55,919 bases of DNA, taken from Candidatus Scatonaster coprocaballi. Its GTDB lineage: Bacteria > Bacillota > Clostridia > Saccharofermentanales > Saccharofermentanaceae. The position numbers were made by a program, and so were the translations under genes. The stretch lies in assembly GCA_018064475.1 (NCBI GenBank), contig JAGHVD010000072.1, forward strand, positions 1-55,919, in the 5' to 3' direction. The notes beneath the pieces are model-generated. The model was not told the origin of the DNA. It did no database searches and was given only the letters and a program-made list of their open reading frames with translations. Below are positions 25,938-47,341 of this stretch, in pieces. The stretch's first letter is position 1, and every line of letters starts with the position of its first letter.

Positions 25938-27110
25938 ATGACAAAGAAAGACGACAAGAAGAAACTTCAATCAGACTCAACGATTGCTGAACTTACAACG
26001 ATGATCCTGCAAGCCATGCATACCTATGACGAGTTGGATGATCAAGCATTTCAAGAAATCATTGCCGATATCATCAACCAATCCGACAAGTATCACAAAC
26101 TCCCCTTGGAGGAGAAGCGTCAACTTGCCATTACGTTATTCAATCGTATGCGACGCCTTGATATCCTTCAGCCGCTTATGGACAACGAACAGATCACAGA
26201 AATCATGGTCAATGGTCCGAACAAAATCTTCTTCGAACAGAACGGTCAACTCTACCCGTCTGACCTGCAATTTGAGAGCGCAGAATCACTCTCTCAACTG
26301 ATTCTTCATTTCTTTTCTTCTGCGAATCGACCGTTAAACGAGGCATGTCCAATCGCCGATCTTCGCTTACCGGATGGCTCACGTGCTAATGCGGTTCTAC
26401 CGCCGATAGCGCCGGACGGACCAATCTTCACAATTCGTAAATTCACCGGCATTCGGCCTGACATACAGACATTGATTCGAAGCGGATTTATCAGTAGTGA
26501 TGCCGCGCAATATCTTTCAAGTGCGGTCCGAGAACGGAAGACGATCTTTCTCTGTGGAGGAACCGGCTCTGGTAAAACAACTTTCCTGAATGTTCTTTCT
26601 TCTTTCATTCCCAAGACCGAACGAGTCGTCACGATTGAAGACTCCGCCGAACTATCTTTACAAGGAATCACGAATCTTGTTCGCCTAGAATCTCGTCTTC
26701 CAGGACCGGACGGACACGGTGGAGTTGACATCGGTCAACTGATTCGAACCGCACTTCGTATGCGTCCAGATCGAATCGTTGTTGGTGAAGTTCGTGGATC
26801 AGAAGCAGCCGATATGCTTCATGCACTTCATACCGGCCATCCCGGTTCTCTGTGTACCGGTCATGCAAATTCTTGTCTGGAAATGCTTGAGCGCTTGGTT
26901 ACCATGGTCATGGCTGGTTCCACACTACCCTATGATGCCGTCATCCGTCAGATAACCATGGGCGTCGACATTCTGGTTCACATTACCCGAGGCAAATCCG
27001 GGCAAAGATACATCGACGAGATTTCAGAAGTATGTCCCATCCAGGATAACCGTTTCCACATCCGACAACGATACCAGTACAAGGAGGCGAATGGTCTTGA
27101 AGCATGCTAA
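25938..27110 (+). CDS. cpaF: Tad pilus/secretion ATPase CpaF (TadA)
   Basis: Cytoplasmic hexameric ATPase that drives Flp pilus assembly. A helical N-domain (about 1-100) precedes the type II/IV secretion ATPase core: Walker A GGTGSGKTTFLN (about 210-221), the Asp box VVTIEDSAEL, Walker B RPDRIVVGEVRG and the His box LHALHTGHPGSLCTGHANS. Length 390 is typical. The nearest AAGGAG is about 20 bases upstream of the ATG, too far for normal initiation, and no better start codon is seen between them. It overlaps the next gene by 20 bases. Confidence 0.95.
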   Translation: MTKKDDKKKLQSDSTIAELTTMILQAMHTYDELDDQAFQEIIADIINQSDKYHKLPLEEKRQLAITLFNRMRRLDILQPLMDNEQITEIMVNGPNKIFFEQNGQLYPSDLQFESAESLSQLILHFFSSANRPLNEACPIADLRLPDGSRANAVLPPIAPDGPIFTIRKFTGIRPDIQTLIRSGFISSDAAQYLSSAVRERKTIFLCGGTGSGKTTFLNVLSSFIPKTERVVTIEDSAELSLQGITNLVRLESRLPGPDGHGGVDIGQLIRTALRMRPDRIVVGEVRGSEAADMLHALHTGHPGSLCTGHANSCLEMLERLVTMVMAGSTLPYDAVIRQITMGVDILVHITRGKSGQRYIDEISEVCPIQDNRFHIRQRYQYKEANGLEAC

Positions 27111-32963: not shown

Positions 32964-34874
32964 TTAATCCTCGCGGTTCTGGTATTCTTTACGTTCAGCA
33001 ACGAACATCGAGTGATATTCGGCTTCGATCTCATCAATTTCCTTCTTGGTCTCATCGTCCAAGACACGGGTATCGATAATCTTCTTCAAGACATCCGGAT
33101 GGAGGACCGACATACGTTGCAAGAACTCTGTCACATACTCTTTTGCATCTTCCTTATCCAAGAATGTCAACTTCTCATTGGTAGCCAAGTAGAGCATGAC
33201 AACCTGCTCATCCAGCTGCATCGGTGCATACTGGCCTTGCTTGAGAATCTCATTCAGGATCACGCCACGCTTGATCTGCTTCTGTGTATTCGCATCCAGA
33301 TCTGATCCGAATTGGGCAAAAGCAGCCATCTCACGTGCCTGAGCCAGACTAATACGAAGTGGACCTGCCACTTTCTTCATCGCCTTGGTCTGCGCCGCGC
33401 CACCTACACGGGAAACAGAGAGACCTACATTAATTGCAGGACGCTGACCCGAGAAGAAGAGTTCTGATTCAAGATAGATCTGACCATCTGTAATCGAAAT
33501 TACATTGGTCGGAATGTATGCTGAAATATCTCCACTCAATGTCTCAATAATCGGAAGTGCGGTAATCGATCCGCCACCCATTTCATCGCTGAGTTTCGCG
33601 GCACGTTCCAGAAGACGAGAGTGCAGATAGAATACGTCACCTGGATAAGCTTCACGTCCCGGTGGACGTCTCAGCAACAATGAAATTGCACGATATGCCT
33701 GCGCATGTTTGGACAAGTCATCGTAGACAATGAGAACATCCTCGTGATCACCATACATAAATTCTTCTGCAATCGCACAACCCGCGTACGGCGCAATATA
33801 CTGCAAAGAAGCCGGTTGCGAAGCACTGGCCGCAACAATTACGGTGTACTCCATAGCATTGTGTTGCTCCAAGATCTGCGCCACTTGCACAATATTCGAC
33901 ATCTTCTGACCGATTGCAACATAGACACACAACACGTTCTTGCCACGCTGATTCAGAATGGTATCAATTGCAATCGCCGTCTTACCTGTCTGACGATCGC
34001 CGATAATCAATTCACGCTGTCCGCGTCCGATTGGTGTCATGGCATCGATTGCGGTAATACCCGTCTGAAGCGGTTCACAGATTGGAGAACGCTCAACGAT
34101 ACTTGGTGCCGGATATTCGATTGGACGACGATTCGTCGAACGAATAATACCCTTTCCGTCGATTGGGTTACCAAGCGGATCTACGACACGGCCAATCATT
34201 CCACGGCCGACCGGGATAGAAACTGTACGACCGGTACGATGACACATCGCACCTTGCACGACGTCTCGGCACTCATTCAGAAGCACAACGCCAACACTGT
34301 CTGTCTCCAGGTTCATGGCGATACCATACGAATTCTCCGAGAACATGATCAATTCGCTGGCCACACAATTCTCTAGGCCGCTTACCTTCGCAACACCATC
34401 ACTGACCGAGATAACCTGACCGACCTGTTCGACCTCACTCGCCTTCGCAAATCCGGTCAGAAGCTGTTCACGTGCCTCTGTCTGCTCCGGTTCATCTTCT
34501 TCCCAAAGTGTATCATCTTCGAAAAGTGCCGCCGGACGTTCATCGAATTCCTTCAGCGCTTCAGTCAATGAGCGATGAATCTCTTCCGCCTCATCCGCAC
34601 CTTCCTTAAAGGAAGAATCATTTCCACGATCTGTCTTTAAGTGTTTGCCAATTCGAGCAAGTTGTCCGACATAACTATAGTCATACTTCGTACCCTGCGC
34701 AAAAATCACATATCCGCCAAGCAGGGACTTATCCGTCTCAGTCTCGATGGTATATCCCTGCTGGATGTGAAGATGCTCAGCAAAACGACGTGCAATCAAT
34801 GCCACTTTCTCAGGTGGCATATCGTCCGAAGCAGTCACGATTCGAATGACTTCAAAACCACTGTTATTATTCAC
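32964..34874 (-). CDS. atpA: ATP synthase delta(C-terminal)-alpha fusion subunit
   Basis: A protein of 636 residues; the family norm is about 500. Residues 136-636 are a complete alpha subunit ([19 protein letters not shown], Walker [30 protein letters not shown], the arginine-finger region with [13 protein letters not shown]). Residues about 8-80 resemble the C-terminal half of the delta subunit ([15 protein letters not shown], then [20 protein letters not shown] and GQLARIG). An acidic linker of about 55 residues joins them. No ATG lies between residue 19 and the alpha core, so separate initiation of alpha is unlikely. The gene overlaps atpF by 8 bases, leaving no room for a free atpH. The delta N-terminal domain is missing. 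Confidence 0.9.
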
Positions 34875-39513: not shown

Positions 39514-40725
39514 TCATTTTCCATCTCTGGGTGGAAGACGATAGTAATTTGTTAATTGGCAACGAATGGAACCGTTATACAACTTTCTTCTTTTATCTGC
39601 TTTTCGTATGACTTGGTTTTCGAAACTATCATCCGGTGTAATGACCGAAAGTCGGATTCCACGCTTGCAATATCCCTTCCAATCAAGGTACGTCTGTGCA
39701 ATGCCTCGGTAAATCTCAGAAGCTTCCTCCGGTGTCAGCAAACGTCCACCGTACGGGGGATTACAAAGGATCAACTGTCTAGGAAGTCCGGTCCAATTGT
39801 GAAGTTCTTCCGGCGTCTGACGTTTAAAATCGCTCACTTTGAAACGAATAAAATCTCCCACACCTGCCGCACGTGCATTGCGTTCCGCAGTTTGTACAGC
39901 TTTCGGGTCGATATCCGATCCGTAGAAATAGACATCATCCATGGGTGAAAGATCCAGAAGATCCTTCGCTTCTTCTCGAGCAAGGTCATACGCTTTTCGA
40001 CCGATATATGGTAATGCTTCGCCTGCAAAATCGCGCTTCAGCCCCGGTGCAATATTGAGCGCCATCATGGCCGCTTCGATCACGATCGTGCCTGAACCAC
40101 AGAAAGGATCCACCAACGCCTCCTCACCAAAGAACCGGTAAGATGCAGCACTGACCATTCCTGCCGCTAATGTTTCCTTGATTGGCGCTTCGTGCATCAA
40201 TGGTCGGTAGCCACGTTTATGAAGTCCGTCACCGGTAATGTCGATCATCACGCGAACGAGATCTTTTACTATACCGAAGACGATCTTAATCAGGCCGACT
40301 TTCTCATCTTCTTCCAAACGTGCGGTATCCGGCATATGTCTCTCAAAGAGCAATGCCTTTACAATTGCTTTCTTCGCCAGACTCTGACAGGCTGGAATTC
40401 CAAAGAGTTTGGAATCACGTGAATAACCGTTCACAACGAAGGCCGCGCCGTCCGGAATCCAATTTCTCCATTTCATTTTCTCGAAGCCATCGAAGAATGC
40501 CTCGAACGTTTGCGCTTCAAATTCAGAAACCGAAAGCAGTACACGTTCACCGCGGCGACACCACATACACACTCTCGCCGCATCGGTAGCCATGGTATCC
40601 GGAGTCGTTTCCACTAGCAACTGGCCGTCCGTAACGGTAATCTTTTCTTTCGTAAATCCATGTTCTACAAGATCCTCCACACAAAAATGTTCCAGGCCGA
40701 ATAGACAAGTGATAACAATTTTCAT
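39514..40725 (-). CDS. THUMP-domain RNA methyltransferase (RlmL/YpsC family)
   Basis: A SAM-dependent enzyme of 403 residues that methylates a guanine or related base in rRNA. The N-terminal ferredoxin-like and THUMP domains span about 1-155. The Rossmann methyltransferase domain contains LVDPFCGSGTIVIEAA (SAM-binding loop, about 203-218), FYGSDIDPKAV and the catalytic LILCNPPYGGRL. By family the likely target is m2G in 23S rRNA. It follows the Rnf-like operon by 22 bases with GGAAGGAG before the ATG, occupying the position where rnfB is expected. No functional link to electron transport is known. Confidence 0.92.
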   Translation of the reverse strand: MKIVITCLFGLEHFCVEDLVEHGFTKEKITVTDGQLLVETTPDTMATDAARVCMWCRRGERVLLSVSEFEAQTFEAFFDGFEKMKWRNWIPDGAAFVVNGYSRDSKLFGIPACQSLAKKAIVKALLFERHMPDTARLEEDEKVGLIKIVFGIVKDLVRVMIDITGDGLHKRGYRPLMHEAPIKETLAAGMVSAASYRFFGEEALVDPFCGSGTIVIEAAMMALNIAPGLKRDFAGEALPYIGRKAYDLAREEAKDLLDLSPMDDVYFYGSDIDPKAVQTAERNARAAGVGDFIRFKVSDFKRQTPEELHNWTGLPRQLILCNPPYGGRLLTPEEASEIYRGIAQTYLDWKGYCKRGIRLSVITPDDSFENQVIRKADKRRKLYNGSIRCQLTNYYRLPPRDGK

Positions 40726-40747: not shown

Positions 40748-41875
40748 TTACAATACCGGTAAGACAGATGACCACGGCATCAAAACAAGCATGGCCAGGA
40801 AAATCTGTAGTACAACGAACGGCATACCTTCCAGCATTCGCGGTTGTTTGCCAAAAAGCAATCTTTCCTTCACGACGCGTGTATAGGAAATCGTAACCAC
40901 AGCCGTAAGCCACACCCCGATCATAAATGCGATCCACCAGATGAGTCTTACGCTGGAGACAGCACCTCCCTCTGCACGATAGTAATTCACGTACAACATC
41001 ATTGTCAAAGTGGTGGTGATGATACTCAGAAACGGTGTGTAGCGATAACGATCAAGTGTCTGTCCCTGTTTAAATAACCAGATGATCAGCGTAAACAGCG
41101 TTACAGATATCAGCGAAGCGAACGTAACGATATGCGTTGTGTTCTGGATATTCGCCGGTGCAAATTCTACCATCGCCGCACCGATCGCACCAAAAAGGAG
41201 ATTATAGATCAGCATACAAAGGCACAGTTTCACAAAGTCTTTCTCTTCCTGAAGCTGAATCGACTGATAACTCTTCGTTCTTCCTTCCTCCGTCTGAAGT
41301 CGATGTACACTGCCACCATTTCGGTGGAACATCACCGGTAGTGTCATTAGGCTGACTAACACCAGCAAAGCGCCACTCGGTGAGTGAGTCAGGCATGTTA
41401 ACTTCACGCGTTCGAGTCCACTGATCTTGTGATTCCAAATCGTTGCAGCGCCAAGTGCTTCACGCACCAGTGAGATAATCGTTCCTGACACGATAAAATA
41501 CAGAAAACCTTTGCTGCAGTCCGCGACGTCAACGCTGTGCTGAGCATCGAAATATCCGAATAGCGGTGCACTTAGAAAGAGAAAAGTAGATACCGGAAGC
41601 AGGAGAAATCCATTGTTTTCTGAGAAAAACGGTACAAAGTCTGCCAGAAGCAACACCATCTCGCCCATCAAGGCCGCGAGCACTAGGAAAATCCCCCAGC
41701 AGATACGTTTGTTCTCAATCTTATGGAAAACCACCAAGTTGACCAAACCAAATACCAATATCTGCACGCTTGCACTGGCAAAAGACTGGAGCGACGCAGT
41801 TGTAAAAATGAGCATCAACGCAAATGAGAGCAGGATGCAGTATTGTTTTTTGGAAATACATGTATACTCGCTCAT
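40748..41875 (-). CDS. putative fused RnfE-RnfA-like membrane protein
   Basis: A protein of 375 residues with about eleven membrane segments, in the place of rnfE and rnfA. The first half follows RnfE: polar loop after two helices, LMGEMVLLLADFVPFF (about 69-84), then ISLVREALGAATIW (134-147), like the RnfE pattern AIRE.LG.GT. After a cytoplasmic stretch rich in charge (185-215), the second half ends in YTRVVKERL and EGMPFVVLQIFLAMLVLM (331-366), like RnfA's IRERL and GLPIALI..GLMALAF. The cysteines that bind the shared intramembrane iron-sulfur cluster (in the GLCP, GICP and NC motifs) are not at the matching positions. The alignment is by eye and divergent, particularly in the second half. 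Confidence 0.55.
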   Translation of the reverse strand: MSEYTCISKKQYCILLSFALMLIFTTASLQSFASASVQILVFGLVNLVVFHKIENKRICWGIFLVLAALMGEMVLLLADFVPFFSENNGFLLLPVSTFLFLSAPLFGYFDAQHSVDVADCSKGFLYFIVSGTIISLVREALGAATIWNHKISGLERVKLTCLTHSPSGALLVLVSLMTLPVMFHRNGGSVHRLQTEEGRTKSYQSIQLQEEKDFVKLCLCMLIYNLLFGAIGAAMVEFAPANIQNTTHIVTFASLISVTLFTLIIWLFKQGQTLDRYRYTPFLSIITTTLTMMLYVNYYRAEGGAVSSVRLIWWIAFMIGVWLTAVVTISYTRVVKERLLFGKQPRMLEGMPFVVLQIFLAMLVLMPWSSVLPVL

Positions 41876-41876
41876 A

Positions 41877-43094
41877 TTAACCTACCCAATTCAGATATTC
41901 TCGCATAAACTTGTATGCCTGATTCATCGTACTCAGCAATGCCGCGCTCTCATTCTGCTTGCCCGCAATGCCATCAATATTCGATCTGATTTCGCTCATC
42001 GGAATACCATCAACACTATCCGATAAGACATTGGTCGCATCTCCGGATACCACACCATCTTCGCCGCCGATCACTTCGATCTCATTCTGGATCGGCTTCG
42101 GTGTAGGCGTCAGTTCCGAATATGTCGCATCCGGTTCTGTATCATCGGTCGGCACCGGCGTCGGGGTCACTTCTGAATCAGACTCACCCGTTTCCACTGC
42201 ATCCTGTTTGTCCTTCAGATATTGATCTTTCGTATACGAAGTACGGGAGTACTGGATACATTGGTTCACAAGTTCAACAAAAGTATCAATTGAAATGGTG
42301 ACACCATCGATAATCTCTGTCTTTGCATCTGACTTCATACCAAGTTTCACCGGATCTTGTACAACGACCAAATAGCTGGACAATCGGTAGGATTGTTCTG
42401 CCCACAAATTACCGGAAACTCTGTACTCACCACTGATTGAATCTTCCGAACGCGTCGTATGGGTCTGATCATTGTCAGCATCCCATGTCACACGCACGAT
42501 CCTACCGCCGCGAACTTCCATCTCACAGTAATCGATGTAACCATCTTTGGCCGGCTCTGGTGCACGAGCATAGAAAGTGCCGTCATGCAAACCAAGGAGC
42601 GGGTCATACTCAACTTTGGAGCTGACATCCACCATGACCTCTTTCTTCAGTCCGATCGGGACGCGTGCCCCATCCAACTGAAGGCGAAGAGTCTCCAACT
42701 CCTGAGGAGTAAAGAGCGCTTCATTCTCTGCCTCGTCCAGAATGCGAAAATCCAGAATATTCTCACCATTTTCACTGATACTCATCTGTGTGTGGATCAG
42801 ACCGACTGTATCCGTCTCCATCTGCACATCCACAATGTATCCGACCAGACGTTCATTCTCATCATAGGCAGCAAACACCTTCTTCACGTCCGGATGATTA
42901 TCCAGCACATCGGTGTCCAATTCGTTGTAGGTAGAAGCTAGTAAGAGTGAACCATATTCTTCTTGGTAATGCTTCTGTTTAGCCTCTCTCCCCTTACGTC
43001 TGTTATATCCCAGACATCCAAGAAGGAAAGCAAAGCTCAGAAGTACAACCAGTATTGCGCGCCAGGTCAGGCCTCGAAAGAACGACTTCGTCAT
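41877..43094 (-). CDS. rnfG: RnfG-like FMN-binding protein
   Basis: A protein of 405 residues, about twice the size of RnfG. One membrane anchor (14-30) is followed by two FMN-binding-like modules outside the cell (about 60-150 and 165-280). The second ends in DGVTISIDTFVELVNQ (263-278), matching the D..SGATISS attachment site with Thr266 kept but SGA changed. A Pro/Thr-rich linker with repeated PTPxP (about 310-345) and a C-terminal helix follow; this tail is unusual. Start ATG 43092-43094 has GGAGGTGA five bases upstream and overlaps rnfD in an ATGA junction. Electron-transfer role is by family and context. Confidence 0.78.
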   Translation of the reverse strand: MTKSFFRGLTWRAILVVLLSFAFLLGCLGYNRRKGREAKQKHYQEEYGSLLLASTYNELDTDVLDNHPDVKKVFAAYDENERLVGYIVDVQMETDTVGLIHTQMSISENGENILDFRILDEAENEALFTPQELETLRLQLDGARVPIGLKKEVMVDVSSKVEYDPLLGLHDGTFYARAPEPAKDGYIDYCEMEVRGGRIVRVTWDADNDQTHTTRSEDSISGEYRVSGNLWAEQSYRLSSYLVVVQDPVKLGMKSDAKTEIIDGVTISIDTFVELVNQCIQYSRTSYTKDQYLKDKQDAVETGESDSEVTPTPVPTDDTEPDATYSELTPTPKPIQNEIEVIGGEDGVVSGDATNVLSDSVDGIPMSEIRSNIDGIAGKQNESAALLSTMNQAYKFMREYLNWVG

Positions 43095-44053
43095 GATTTC
43101 ACCTCCCGATACCAACTCGACTTAGAGAAAGCCTGTGGGCGAATATAACGATCGAAAATCGGTGTCGTCATATTCATCATCAGAACCGGGAAAATCATCG
43201 CATAAGTGCTATTTCCAAATCGATACATCAGAAGTGTGAGGATACCGGTACCACACCCAAAGAAAGCTCGACCCTTTCTAGACAATGGCATCGTCGTACA
43301 ATCATTGAGCATGAAAACGCCAATCAGCACCAGTCCTCCACAAGTGATCCAAGAAGCAAAGTGACGCAGTCCGAGCGAATGGATATAGCAAGGAATGTAG
43401 CCAATGATCAAGGTCGCAAAATAGGCAAGTGACGCCTCGAAATGGAAGAGACGGCGTTCGATCAGAATCACCATTCCCAGTAGGATCAACGCGGTAGTCG
43501 CAGTACCAATCATGCTCGGAATTCTTCCGGACAAAATATGTGACCAAGATAGATCCGGCAAAGAAGGTGTGTCTACAGCTGGTTTACCGGTAAGTAACGA
43601 TGTAACATGCCACAAGCCGTCGAACGGTCCTTCTACAACGGTCATCTGCGAAGGAAATGCAAATTCCAAGAACATCCTCGACGCCAATGCCGGGTTGAAG
43701 ATATTGGTACCGACGCCACCGAACGCCTGTTTAATCAGAAGTGAGCCAAATAGTGCAGCCAGAAAGATTGCCCACACCGAGGTCGATACCGGAACCAGCA
43801 AAGTCAACAGAAGTCCGCTGACAATAGAACTATAGTCCACGTAGAAAGCCTGTTCCGGATACAATTTGCGGGTGGACAGATAATCCGAGAAGAAGAATGT
43901 CAGGATCGACACGGCCGACAGTACCAGCACTCGAAAACCATAATAGAACACGCCAGCGATCCAAGCCGGGAGAAGGGCAAGACACACATAGATATACCGC
44001 TCCGCTGCCGGCTGATCCGCATGAATATGAGGTGCCAATTGTTTACGTTTCAT
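43091..44053 (-). CDS. rnfD: RnfD-like membrane flavoprotein subunit
   Basis: A protein of 320 residues of the RnfD/NqrB family, with eight or more membrane helices. The signature FGGVGTNIFNPALASRMFLEF (about 111-131, quoted in part) corresponds to GG.G.N.FNPA. The usual covalent FMN site (DxxSGAT) aligns with DGLWHVTSLL: Thr151 is present but SGA is replaced by WHV. Later helices (MLNDCTTMPLSRKGRAFFGCGTG) match the family's C-terminal part. It overlaps rnfC by ATGA and rnfG by ATGA. It should form the membrane core with the E/A-like protein. Confidence 0.88.
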   Translation of the reverse strand: MKRKQLAPHIHADQPAAERYIYVCLALLPAWIAGVFYYGFRVLVLSAVSILTFFFSDYLSTRKLYPEQAFYVDYSSIVSGLLLTLLVPVSTSVWAIFLAALFGSLLIKQAFGGVGTNIFNPALASRMFLEFAFPSQMTVVEGPFDGLWHVTSLLTGKPAVDTPSLPDLSWSHILSGRIPSMIGTATTALILLGMVILIERRLFHFEASLAYFATLIIGYIPCYIHSLGLRHFASWITCGGLVLIGVFMLNDCTTMPLSRKGRAFFGCGTGILTLLMYRFGNSTYAMIFPVLMMNMTTPIFDRYIRPQAFSKSSWYREVKS

Positions 44054-45390
44054 TGTCTGGCACTCCTTCTGGCTCGATATGCAGCCTTGGCAATATTAGT
44101 TGAAAGTTCAATACCTGCCGGACACACATAGGAACACGCTCCGCAAGCGATGCATTGTTCAACCGATTCAGCAGGCAGCTGATCCTGTTTTCCCAGTTCA
44201 ATCAAGCGATTCAGCAAATTCGGGGTAAGATTCACAGGACATGCATGCACACATGCACCGCAGTGAATACAGTTCATGCGCGGCGGTTCAAATTTACGGA
44301 TAATCGTAACCGCCGTGGTCGTCTTGATGATCGGCACATCTAAACGATTGATGGCTACGCCGGTCATCGCACCACCCCACACAATACGTTGGGCTGTATG
44401 CGCACCCGGAACACGTTCCAGTATCTCTGACACGCTGGTTCCTATCGGAACCAAGACATTGTGTCCGGTAATCGTGTCTCCGGAAATCGTGACGATTCGA
44501 GATGTAAGTGGCTGATTCTTCTCAATCATTTCAGAGAATGCAAAGCAAGTCGACGCATTGAAGAGCACTGCCTTCACCTTCTCTTCCATCTCCGTTCCCA
44601 GAGGAAGTTCTACACCATACAACGCCTTGATCAGAAGTTGCTGGCACCCTTGAGGGAATCTCGTCTTAAATAACTGAACAGATATTTTGCGATCCAGATA
44701 CCGGGATCTCGTCTCTTCCACCGCTTTGTTTATGGCTTCAATCTCATCTACCCAAGTATCCTCAATACAAAAGATGACTTGTTTGACGCGACAGATTCCA
44801 CTCAACGCCATAGCCCCCTGCAGAACTTTGTTCGCATCCACACGGATATGGTGAAGATCGCATGCCAAGAACGGTTCACTCTGGGTGCAATTCACAAGAA
44901 GTGTATCCACCTCGCGTTTGACAGCGCGCATACACTTGGTATAAGTTGGCTCACCTTCGCCACCCATTCCGCATATTCCAGACGTCCATAGAAGTTTCGT
45001 CAATTCGCGCAGGGAAAGCTGAGAAGCGTTCTTGCGAGGCTGAATCGAATTGGATACCCGACGACGCAAGTCGTTCTTAATCGTGACCGCCTTGCAGCTC
45101 ACTTTATTCGGTAGACGGATTGTGCTGATTTGGGTTACTGTACCAGAAATACTGGCATGCACAGGTACACCGAACATATCTGCCGGCACACCAATTAAAT
45201 CACCCATGGCCACTTCGTCCCCAACTGAAACAACCGGATCACATGCCGTGCCAATATGCTGTTTCATGGGAATGGTGACTTCTCTAGGGGCGCAGACCTC
45301 AAGAATGGCTTCGCGCAAAAACTTACGTTGATGCACGAAGTCAAGTCCATCCTTGGGCATGATTCCTTTTTTGAAAGAGAGTTTCTTCAT
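44050..45390 (-). CDS. rnfC: RnfC-like iron-sulfur subunit
   Basis: Soluble, membrane-attached subunit of 446 residues. The N-terminal RnfC domain (about 10-110, GTACDPVVSVGDEVAMGD) is followed by the SLBB/Rossmann region with GMGGEGEPTYTK, the family glycine motif for NADH/FMN binding. Two 4Fe-4S sites end the protein: CIHCGACVHACP and CIACGACSYVCP. First gene of the Rnf-like set, 28 bases after sigA. In Rnf complexes this subunit exchanges electrons with NAD(H). Confidence 0.93.
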   Translation of the reverse strand: MKKLSFKKGIMPKDGLDFVHQRKFLREAILEVCAPREVTIPMKQHIGTACDPVVSVGDEVAMGDLIGVPADMFGVPVHASISGTVTQISTIRLPNKVSCKAVTIKNDLRRRVSNSIQPRKNASQLSLRELTKLLWTSGICGMGGEGEPTYTKCMRAVKREVDTLLVNCTQSEPFLACDLHHIRVDANKVLQGAMALSGICRVKQVIFCIEDTWVDEIEAINKAVEETRSRYLDRKISVQLFKTRFPQGCQQLLIKALYGVELPLGTEMEEKVKAVLFNASTCFAFSEMIEKNQPLTSRIVTISGDTITGHNVLVPIGTSVSEILERVPGAHTAQRIVWGGAMTGVAINRLDVPIIKTTTAVTIIRKFEPPRMNCIHCGACVHACPVNLTPNLLNRLIELGKQDQLPAESVEQCIACGACSYVCPAGIELSTNIAKAAYRARRSARQ

Positions 45391-45418: not shown

Positions 45419-46486
45419 TCAGTCGATATAATCCTTCAACTTCTTGCTGCGGCTCGGATGACGAAGCTTACGAAGTGCTTTGGCTTCAATCTGACGGATA
45501 CGCTCACGAGTAACGTTGAACTCACGACCAACTTCTTCCAATGTGCGCTGACGTCCATCGTCCAAGCCGAAGCGCAAGCGGAGTACTTTCTCTTCTCTTG
45601 CTGTCAGGCTCTTCATCGCATCCAGAAGTTGTTCTTTCAACAAAGTATATGCAACCTGGTCAGCAGGAGACATCGCATCGTCATCCGGAATAAAGTCTCC
45701 GAGGTGACTATCTTCTTCTTCACCGATTGGCTTCTCCAGAGATACCGGCTCCTGAGAGATCTTCTGAATCTCACGAACCTTCTCTACAGACATACTCATC
45801 TTCTCGGCAATCTCTTCAACGGTAGGCTCACGGCCGAGTTCCTGAATCAGCGCACGCTGCTCACGAACCAAACGGTTAATGGTCTCAACCATGTGAACCG
45901 GAATACGGATCGTTCTTGCCTGATCAGCAATTGCACGGGTGATGGCCTGTCTGATCCACCAAGTCGCATAAGTACTGAACTTAAATCCCTTGGAATGGTC
46001 GAACTTATCAACTGCCTTGATCAAGCCGAGGTTACCTTCCTGGATCAAATCCAAGAACTGCATGCCACGACCCAGGTAACGCTTCGCGATGGAAACTACA
46101 AGACGAAGGTTTGCTTCGATGAGCTGTGCCTTGGCGTCTTCATCACCTTCCATCATCTTCTTTGCCAATTCCTGCTCCTGATCAGCGTTCAGAAGCGGAA
46201 CTTTACCGATTTCTTTCAAATACATACGGACCGGATCGTCCATGCCGATGCCATCTGTAACACCCGCATCGAGATTCAGGTCACGAATCGCATCATCCTC
46301 GATCGAGGTTTCAGCAGAAATACCAATTCCCTTCGCTTCGAGTTCATCGAAGATCTTATCGATCATATCCGGATCGCCATCGTTATCCTCGACAATATTC
46401 ATCACATCCATAGATGAGATGGAGTTGTTATTGGCCATTGCCAGATTTTCGAGTTTCTGCAGGATGATAGAAAAATCACTTGCCAT
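45419..46486 (-). CDS. sigA: primary sigma factor SigA/RpoD
   Basis: Vegetative sigma-70 of 355 residues. Region 1.1 is short (about 1-75), then region 1.2 [16 protein letters not shown], region 2 with [27 protein letters not shown] and [13 protein letters not shown] (-10 recognition), region 3 and region 4 [28 protein letters not shown] (-35 recognition, quoted in parts). GGAGG lies ten bases upstream of the ATG. The usual neighbour dnaG is absent; instead a zinc-ribbon membrane protein lies upstream and rnfC downstream, so the Rnf-like genes may share the sigA transcript. Confidence 0.97.
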
Positions 46487-46558: not shown

Positions 46559-47341
46559 TCAATCCTTCTCGTCTGCTTCCGACTCTTCTTCCGGAACATA
46601 GAACTCAATCTGGTCCTCTTTGGCCCCATCCTTGTTCCCCTCTAATGTAAATCTTCCATTCGGAGCATATACCTTAAGAACTACACCATCGTAGTAATGT
46701 GCACCATCATCGGATGAATATCCGTATTCTTCGCCGCGAATCTGACAGAATGACTCAAATGCAAGCAACACCTGGCTATTGTCAACTTCCTTCGCAGCAA
46801 CCAAAGTCAATTCTTTATTTGTCTGACCATCGAGTTTGTAATTCTTTGCATATCCGTCTTCCGTTTCCAGAGAAACTTCCATCTTTGAAGACTCAATTAC
46901 AACAGAAAGATCCTTTCTGATCGCTTTTCTATGAGAATAACGAAGTACGCATAGCGGAACAGAGATAGCCAGCACAACCGCAACTGCTGCAGCCGTACTG
47001 ATTCCAACAATCTTCTTTACCTTGCTGGGGGCTTTGATATCATCTGGAGAAATCTCAAAGAGTTTCTCGACCTTTGTTTCCTTTGTTTGAGCACGATCCA
47101 CTTTCACAGCCTGCTCAACAACATTTTCAAATACCGGTGTCGCCACATGGCGAACCGCCGCCTTTTCCCGCTTTGGCTGGGGAAGATTCGGAAATTCAAC
47201 ACCATCTGGGTTATTAAAAATCTCAATTGCTTCTGCTCCTGGGAATACACAATCACAGAAAACACATTCACACATTTCATCCGCTGTGCTCACCATCAGA
47301 AGTGAGCCACAATTCTTACAAATACCTTGTTCGATAGCCAT
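46559..47341 (-). CDS. zinc-ribbon membrane protein of unknown function
   Basis: A protein of 260 residues. The N-terminus carries a zinc-ribbon-like set: CKNCG at 8-12 and a later group CECVFCDC near 24-31. A poorly ordered linker (about 45-105) leads to one membrane helix (about 110-132, IVGISTAAAVAVVLAISVPL). The part outside (about 133-260) is soluble and beta-rich with an acidic end. Topology would place the zinc ribbon in the cytoplasm. No known family beyond the ribbon. It has a strong promoter and lies 72 bases upstream of sigA, so both may be co-transcribed. Confidence 0.72.
   Translation of the reverse strand: MAIEQGICKNCGSLLMVSTADEMCECVFCDCVFPGAEAIEIFNNPDGVEFPNLPQPKREKAAVRHVATPVFENVVEQAVKVDRAQTKETKVEKLFEISPDDIKAPSKVKKIVGISTAAAVAVVLAISVPLCVLRYSHRKAIRKDLSVVIESSKMEVSLETEDGYAKNYKLDGQTNKELTLVAAKEVDNSQVLLAFESFCQIRGEEYGYSSDDGAHYYDGVVLKVYAPNGRFTLEGNKDGAKEDQIEFYVPEEESEADEKD

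Follow-up and report, generated by a model that had tools for sequence, protein, structure and literature searches.

What can an Rnf complex do when RnfB, the subunit through which its electrons enter, is not encoded with it? This question is raised by an operon of Candidatus Scatonaster coprocaballi found on contig JAGHVD010000072.1 (assembly GCA_018064475.1), of which positions 1 to 55,919 of the forward strand were analyzed (hereafter referred to as the window). In this operon, homologs of RnfC, RnfD and RnfG (C2, D2 and G2) are encoded together, as in canonical Rnf (RnfABCDGE), the ferredoxin:NAD+ oxidoreductase (NAD, nicotinamide adenine dinucleotide), and are followed by a single protein, X, in which RnfE and RnfA are fused. 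We are confident of the anatomy of this remodeled complex described below, and its sequence makes it very probable that it is not a ferredoxin:NAD pump.

The operon and its fused membrane subunit

On the minus strand, the genes from window position 45390 down to 40748 and their neighbors are arranged in the order rpoD, C2, D2, G2, X and an RlmL-type methyltransferase gene (Table 1). ATGA overlaps join C2 to D2 and D2 to G2, and a gap of 1 bp separates G2 from X, which confirms the coupled rnfC-rnfD-rnfG arrangement without rnfB that a sequence-only reading of the window had described. The start codon of G2 is most likely the ATG at 43094, since its homologs begin there. No rnfB was present inside the operon, either in the window or in the related loci inspected, and the gene following X indeed encodes an RNA methyltransferase, as that reading had it; this gene directly follows X only in the genus of the window (g1). 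As a claim about the whole genome, the absence of rnfB did not hold. A search of the genome (2.23 Mb in 105 contigs, 94% complete), which also carries one gene for the flavin transferase ApbE (apbE), revealed a complete and intact canonical rnfC-D-G-E-A-B operon on contig C13. The operon in the window is therefore a second, divergent copy.

Canonical Rnf has separate six-helix RnfE and RnfA subunits, whereas X is one chain of 375 residues whose predicted model contains 11 helices of at least 12 residues, arranged as six plus five. Alignments with RnfE and RnfA, together with this helix model, support the proposal that an RnfE half is followed by an RnfA half. The RnfA alignments begin at helix II, and the numbers of Lys and Arg residues per loop are 2, 3, 0, 4, 3 and 4 on the inner side and 0, 0, 3, 0, 2 and 0 on the outer side. 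Most likely, the N-terminal part of X corresponds to a complete RnfE and the C-terminal part to RnfA minus its first transmembrane helix. RnfA and RnfE are arranged inversely in the membrane, and in both of them the kinks of half-helices I and IV carry an invariant Cys (PMC9588780). Given this inverted topology, the loss of one helix would permit the two proteins to be joined in one chain, and dropping helix I of RnfA would also take away one ligand of the iron-sulfur cluster between them.

The suspected loss of the A/E cluster cysteines was borne out by alignment. Substitutions at residues 19, 99/100 and 287 were observed in all 24 X sequences from the genus of the window (Ala or Ser at 19, Leu at 99, Phe or Tyr at 100 and Thr, Met or Lys at 287), and the fourth cluster site falls within the missing helix I. 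In the wider family, 7 of 21 X sequences have Cys at the first RnfE column. The RnfA Cys column is only loosely defined, with 12 of 24 canonical Cys placed in it.

Table 1. Features of the second Rnf operon and its immediate neighbors in the window.
Feature	Position	Strand	Evidence or remark
rpoD (sigA)	45419..46486	-	NF006666, 573.7 bits, above cut-off; lies 28 bp upstream of C2
rnfC-like gene C2, 446 amino acids (aa)	44050..45390	-	TIGR01945, 332.3 bits
rnfD-like gene D2, 320 aa	43091..44053	-	PF03116, E 1.9e-66, residues 7-309; sole significant Pfam match
rnfG-like gene G2, 405 aa	41877..43094	-	position, motif remnants and alignment; FMN_bind match below threshold
rnfE-rnfA fusion X, 375 aa	40748..41875	-	11 longer helices in the predicted model
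RnfE-like part of X, residues 1-190	41306..41875	-	six helices
RnfA-like part of X, residues 205-375	40751..41263	-	helices II-VI; helix I missing
RlmL-type 23S rRNA methyltransferase	39514..40725	-	PF01170, E 5.6e-43; outside the complex

Cofactor sites retained and lost

The Rnf electron chain runs from RnfB through the [2Fe-2S] cluster of RnfA/E, the flavin mononucleotide (FMN) of RnfG and the FMN and riboflavin of RnfD to the two [4Fe-4S] clusters and FMN of RnfC and finally to NAD (PMC11889175). The riboflavin ligands of RnfD, with residue roles taken from the same paper, are retained in D2: D249 is present in all 26 aligned sequences and N123 in 24 of them. Both [4Fe-4S] motifs are present in C2, and all eight cluster Cys residues are conserved in 25 of 25 sequences. 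The Phe of the GGAGFP motif and the first Glu of NAAECEP, which we take to contact FMN/NAD, are substituted in C2 (F147 and E170 in the numbering of the canonical RnfC of this genome), and therefore its electron partner may be other than NADH.

The sites for covalently bound FMN have mostly disappeared. In D2, the A[ST]P motif of the outer segment was found in only 3 of 26 sequences (two from genus g3 and one from g5) versus 18 of 21 canonical proteins; the D2 of the window lacks it, and the column aligned to the covalent-FMN site holds Ser or Thr in 9 of the 26. G2 has lost the SGATxS motif, and the attachment column contains Thr in none of 24 family sequences, compared with 20 of 20 canonical RnfG proteins. 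These assignments for D2 and G2 are motif tests only, and for G2 the aligned Thr column was used in place of the strict motif [ST]GA[ST]x[ST], a weak yardstick that occurs in just 10 of the 20 canonical RnfG proteins.

G2 is enlarged and looks like an RnfG domain into which an FMN_bind/PplA-like module has been inserted. When genomes of the class were searched with a G2 profile, approximately its positions 3-175 matched open reading frames (ORFs) of 192-230 aa, which are of RnfG size and may be RnfG, and approximately its positions 150-303 matched a different set of ORFs. The inserted module has a weak NCBIfam match to the flavoprotein PplA (18.5 bits against a cut-off of 325), and the Thr of its own motif is retained in some sequences, not all.

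Of the Rnf electron chain, only the cytoplasmic half is left. The earlier suggestion of a flavin-linked machine with a different donor finds partial support in the riboflavin ligands of D2 and the iron-sulfur motifs of C2; it is weakened by the loss of the FMN site throughout the G2 sequences and in most D2 sequences, and by the scarcity of ApbE in genus g5 described below.

Distribution among relatives, selection and neighboring genes

X was detected in all 23 genomes of the window's genus, which also encode canonical RnfA/E (22 of 23), RnfB (23 of 23) and ApbE (22 of 23). Across genera g1 to g4, most genomes hold both operons, and canonical Rnf is mostly accompanied by ApbE. One genome of genus g3 (G003, 80% complete) has X and ApbE, with neither RnfA/E nor RnfB detected. 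A different picture was obtained for genus g5, in which an RnfD-like gene is present in 81 of 83 genomes, PF02508 (RnfA/E) and RnfB were detected in 0 of 83 and ApbE in 3, with none detected in the other 80. The g5 counts were tallied by hand, those for ApbE and RnfB as 113 minus the 30 genomes of g1 to g4, and the query for RnfB was the RnfB protein of the window's own genome. TIGR01944 at E 1e-20 was set aside as an RnfB test, as it matched 0 of 113 genomes and missed even the window's genome, which has rnfB. Because g5 keeps an RnfD-like gene without detectable RnfA/E or RnfB, the second operon does not depend on canonical Rnf.

A survey of gene neighborhoods showed that the operon is kept behind rpoD in relatives, even in those without detectable canonical RnfA/E and RnfB. 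C2-D2-G2 follows rpoD in loci of five genera of the family, and the next gene is X or, in remoter members, an ORF of similar size at the same spot that aligns with X. Adjacency of rpoD and C2 was observed in 43 of 43 loci in which both are visible (of the 47 loci inspected, six repeat a contig that was already included). In all ten g5 loci inspected, rpoD-C2-D2-G2 is present together with an ORF of 374-408 aa that resembles X; these loci had been fetched through matches to an X profile (E 8.6e-6 to 9.7e-4), so that the presence of X in them is by construction. In a sample of 391 genomes of the class, 10 of 10 g5 genomes match a wider X profile with E values no higher than 1.1e-9 (G012, G043 and G064 are rows of this profile and the other seven are not), and all ten contain full-length G2. 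All 11 family genomes in this sample match both full-length X and full-length G2, neither of which was found outside the window's family among the 391 genomes. A plasmid search gave no match. Most named relatives of this kind are metagenome-assembled genomes (MAGs) from ruminant guts, some labeled Mageeibacillus sp. As for the alignments, A1 does not include locus L030, A5 uses 5 of the 24 genus copies, and L075, L095, L098 and L107 are truncated by contig ends. One genome, G094, carries the operon twice, in diverged versions on separate contigs (L021 and L031; named L098 and L100), which may represent a duplicate or a mixed MAG.

The ratio of nonsynonymous to synonymous substitution rates (dN/dS, Nei-Gojobori method), calculated for nine hand-chosen close pairs within the genus of the window, was 0.02-0.09 for C2, 0.04-0.11 for D2, 0.08-0.14 for G2 and 0.08-0.21 for X, with 0.00-0.09 for rpoD. 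These values indicate purifying selection on all four genes in this genus, where the complex is maintained and not decaying. The gene spacing suggests that the operon may be transcribed together with rpoD, in which case the complex would be a housekeeping component.

A related, unfused C-D-G operon was found in genus g25 of family f4 (locus L106, 4712-9562; locus L107, 189-4356). In L106, two separate genes for small membrane proteins follow at the place of E and A; neither protein has a PF02508 match, and the second resembles RnfA (BLAST E 2.5e-5). The G protein of L106 retains FMN_bind matches and a final SGATIT, and in L107, which comes from the other of the two g25 genomes, apbE lies just upstream of the operon. 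C2 proteins of g25 group with those of the window's family with 100/100 support, but their branches are long and their composition is deviant; because of the long branches, this kinship is provisional. It suggests that divergence came before the fusion and the loss of flavinylation.

Several other genes in the window were also recorded. The ORF preceding rpoD (260 aa, 46559-47341) has a Cys-rich N-terminal part, zinc-ribbon-like by eye, and one likely membrane helix; it has no significant Pfam or NCBIfam match, and many relatives have ORFs of 241-294 aa at this spot. The ATP synthase alpha subunit (32964-34874) is 636 aa long as read, with its family match beginning at residue 133, which may reflect a long extension at the N terminus, a fusion or an incorrectly assigned GTG start. 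A TadA/VirB11-type secretion ATPase is encoded at 25938-27110 on the plus strand, with a score under the NCBIfam cut-off.

Possible functions and relation to known systems

With the entry subunit RnfB and the membrane-crossing cofactors gone, the complex is unlikely to be a ferredoxin:NAD pump. Export of electrons through covalently bound flavins also appears unlikely, above all in g5, because that genus is mostly without ApbE. The main rival explanation, close to the sequence-only reading and to the published NQR/RNF-like systems, is an NADH-driven exporter in which C2 would oxidize NADH and D2 and G2 would pass electrons through non-covalent flavins to an extracytosolic acceptor. The retained C2 clusters and D2 riboflavin ligands, as well as the additional FMN_bind-like module of G2, would suit such a device. 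The SGATIT of the distant f4 relative and the apbE adjoining the operon of its congener point the same way, and published NQR/RNF-like complexes without the D-site FMN still have one on G (PMC10979944). However, the attachment Thr is absent from every G2 of the family, nearly all g5 genomes keep the RnfD-like gene with no ApbE detected, and the NADH/FMN-site residues of C2 are altered; we therefore consider this exporter unlikely, while ranking it ahead of the other alternatives.

These are all improbable. An accessory of canonical Rnf, which would share RnfB or other subunits as a regulator or alternative form, would fit the co-occurrence of both operons in most g1-g4 genomes, but it is contradicted in g5, where neither RnfA/E nor RnfB was detected in any of the 83 genomes that otherwise keep the RnfD-like gene almost universally. 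Slightly less probable still is an NADH:quinone reductase resembling an early Nqr, in which the riboflavin site of D2 would bind quinone. Nqr is reported to have come by a parallel path from an Rnf duplicate minus rnfB (PMC4014512), yet no MenA (TIGR00751) was found in the window's 94% complete genome, while the control search matched 9 of 14 genomes, six of them above the cut-off; no NqrF-type gene was seen in the operon by inspection, and no genome-wide NqrF search was made. A decaying pseudo-complex is the least probable of all: most cofactor sites are gone and conservation of X is poor (within the genus, 36-46% identity to the copy in the window), but the ORFs are intact and in order wherever no contig end interrupts the locus, the dN/dS values of all four genes lie between 0.02 and 0.21, C2 is 77-86% identical across the genus, and the operon is retained where canonical Rnf was not detected.

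With the pump, covalent-flavin export and, in the window's genome, quinone reduction all unlikely, what is left is a device whose redox changes would be confined to the inner face of the membrane. The operon encodes a divergent, free-standing Rnf paralog, and we give about an even chance to the explanation in this paragraph taken as a whole. The remaining electron path would run on the cytoplasmic side, from a soluble donor to the FMN and two [4Fe-4S] clusters of C2 and on to the riboflavin of D2, and electrons would be unable to cross the membrane by the Rnf route. Most likely, the redox state of the C2/D2 arm would then control or power a change of conformation in the core formed by D2 and the E-A fusion, with the passage of an ion or solute, or a signal to the outer G2 domain, as possible outputs. 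RnfD has a urea/ammonium-transporter-like topology (PMC9588780), and in RnfA/E a switch between inward- and outward-open forms is coupled to the redox state of the cluster (PMC9588780, PMC11889175). Such redox-coupled switching may not apply to X, because the cluster is gone. A redox-gated transporter or sensor made of Rnf parts is the function that we favor, at somewhat less than even odds. More doubtful is the fuller scenario, in which a former respiratory pump would have become such a transporter or sensor, with electrons reaching no further than the cytoplasmic riboflavin of D2 and there gating the inverted-repeat membrane core; the complex would be produced along with the primary sigma factor and would have outlived its parent pump.

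Compared with canonical Rnf, the second operon shares homologs of C, D, G and E/A, their gene order, the [4Fe-4S] motifs of RnfC and the riboflavin ligands of RnfD. It differs in having no RnfB, a fused E and A, no RnfA helix I and a G enlarged by the inserted module, and in the loss of the A/E cysteines and of the covalent FMN sites of G and mostly also of D. The Na+-translocating NADH:quinone oxidoreductase (Na+-NQR, NqrABCDEF) is likewise described as descending from a duplicate of the rnf operon minus rnfB (PMC4014512), but it retains the D/E cluster and the FMNs, lost the cofactors of NqrA and gained NqrF, so that the losses in the second operon are nearly the opposite. NQR/RNF-like systems (Meheust 2021; PMC8238504, PMC10979944) also have a reduced subunit set and have lost D-site flavinylation; they consist of two subunits, a flavinylated G-like one and a D fused to an NqrF-type NAD domain. 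Unlike them, the second operon has RnfC and the E-A fusion, its D2 of 320 aa matches PF03116 only and carries no NqrF-type domain (PF00175), and it has no subunit with a flavinylation motif for ApbE, although apbE is present in the window's genome. No description of such an Rnf variant was found in the open-access literature, the part of the literature searched.

Rnf and Nqr are taught as a single electron path coupled to ion pumping. The second operon provides a natural experiment, in which the transmembrane half of the path is gone, the inverted subunits are fused and the remainder is retained across a bacterial family, and through it the roles of the RnfC/RnfD arm and of the A/E core by themselves can be addressed. 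It also calls for caution, as matches to rnfC and rnfD in metagenomes are no proof of a ferredoxin:NAD pump. In this family, whose members are mostly gut-dwelling, most of the sampled species are without detectable canonical Rnf (g5 accounts for 83 of 113).

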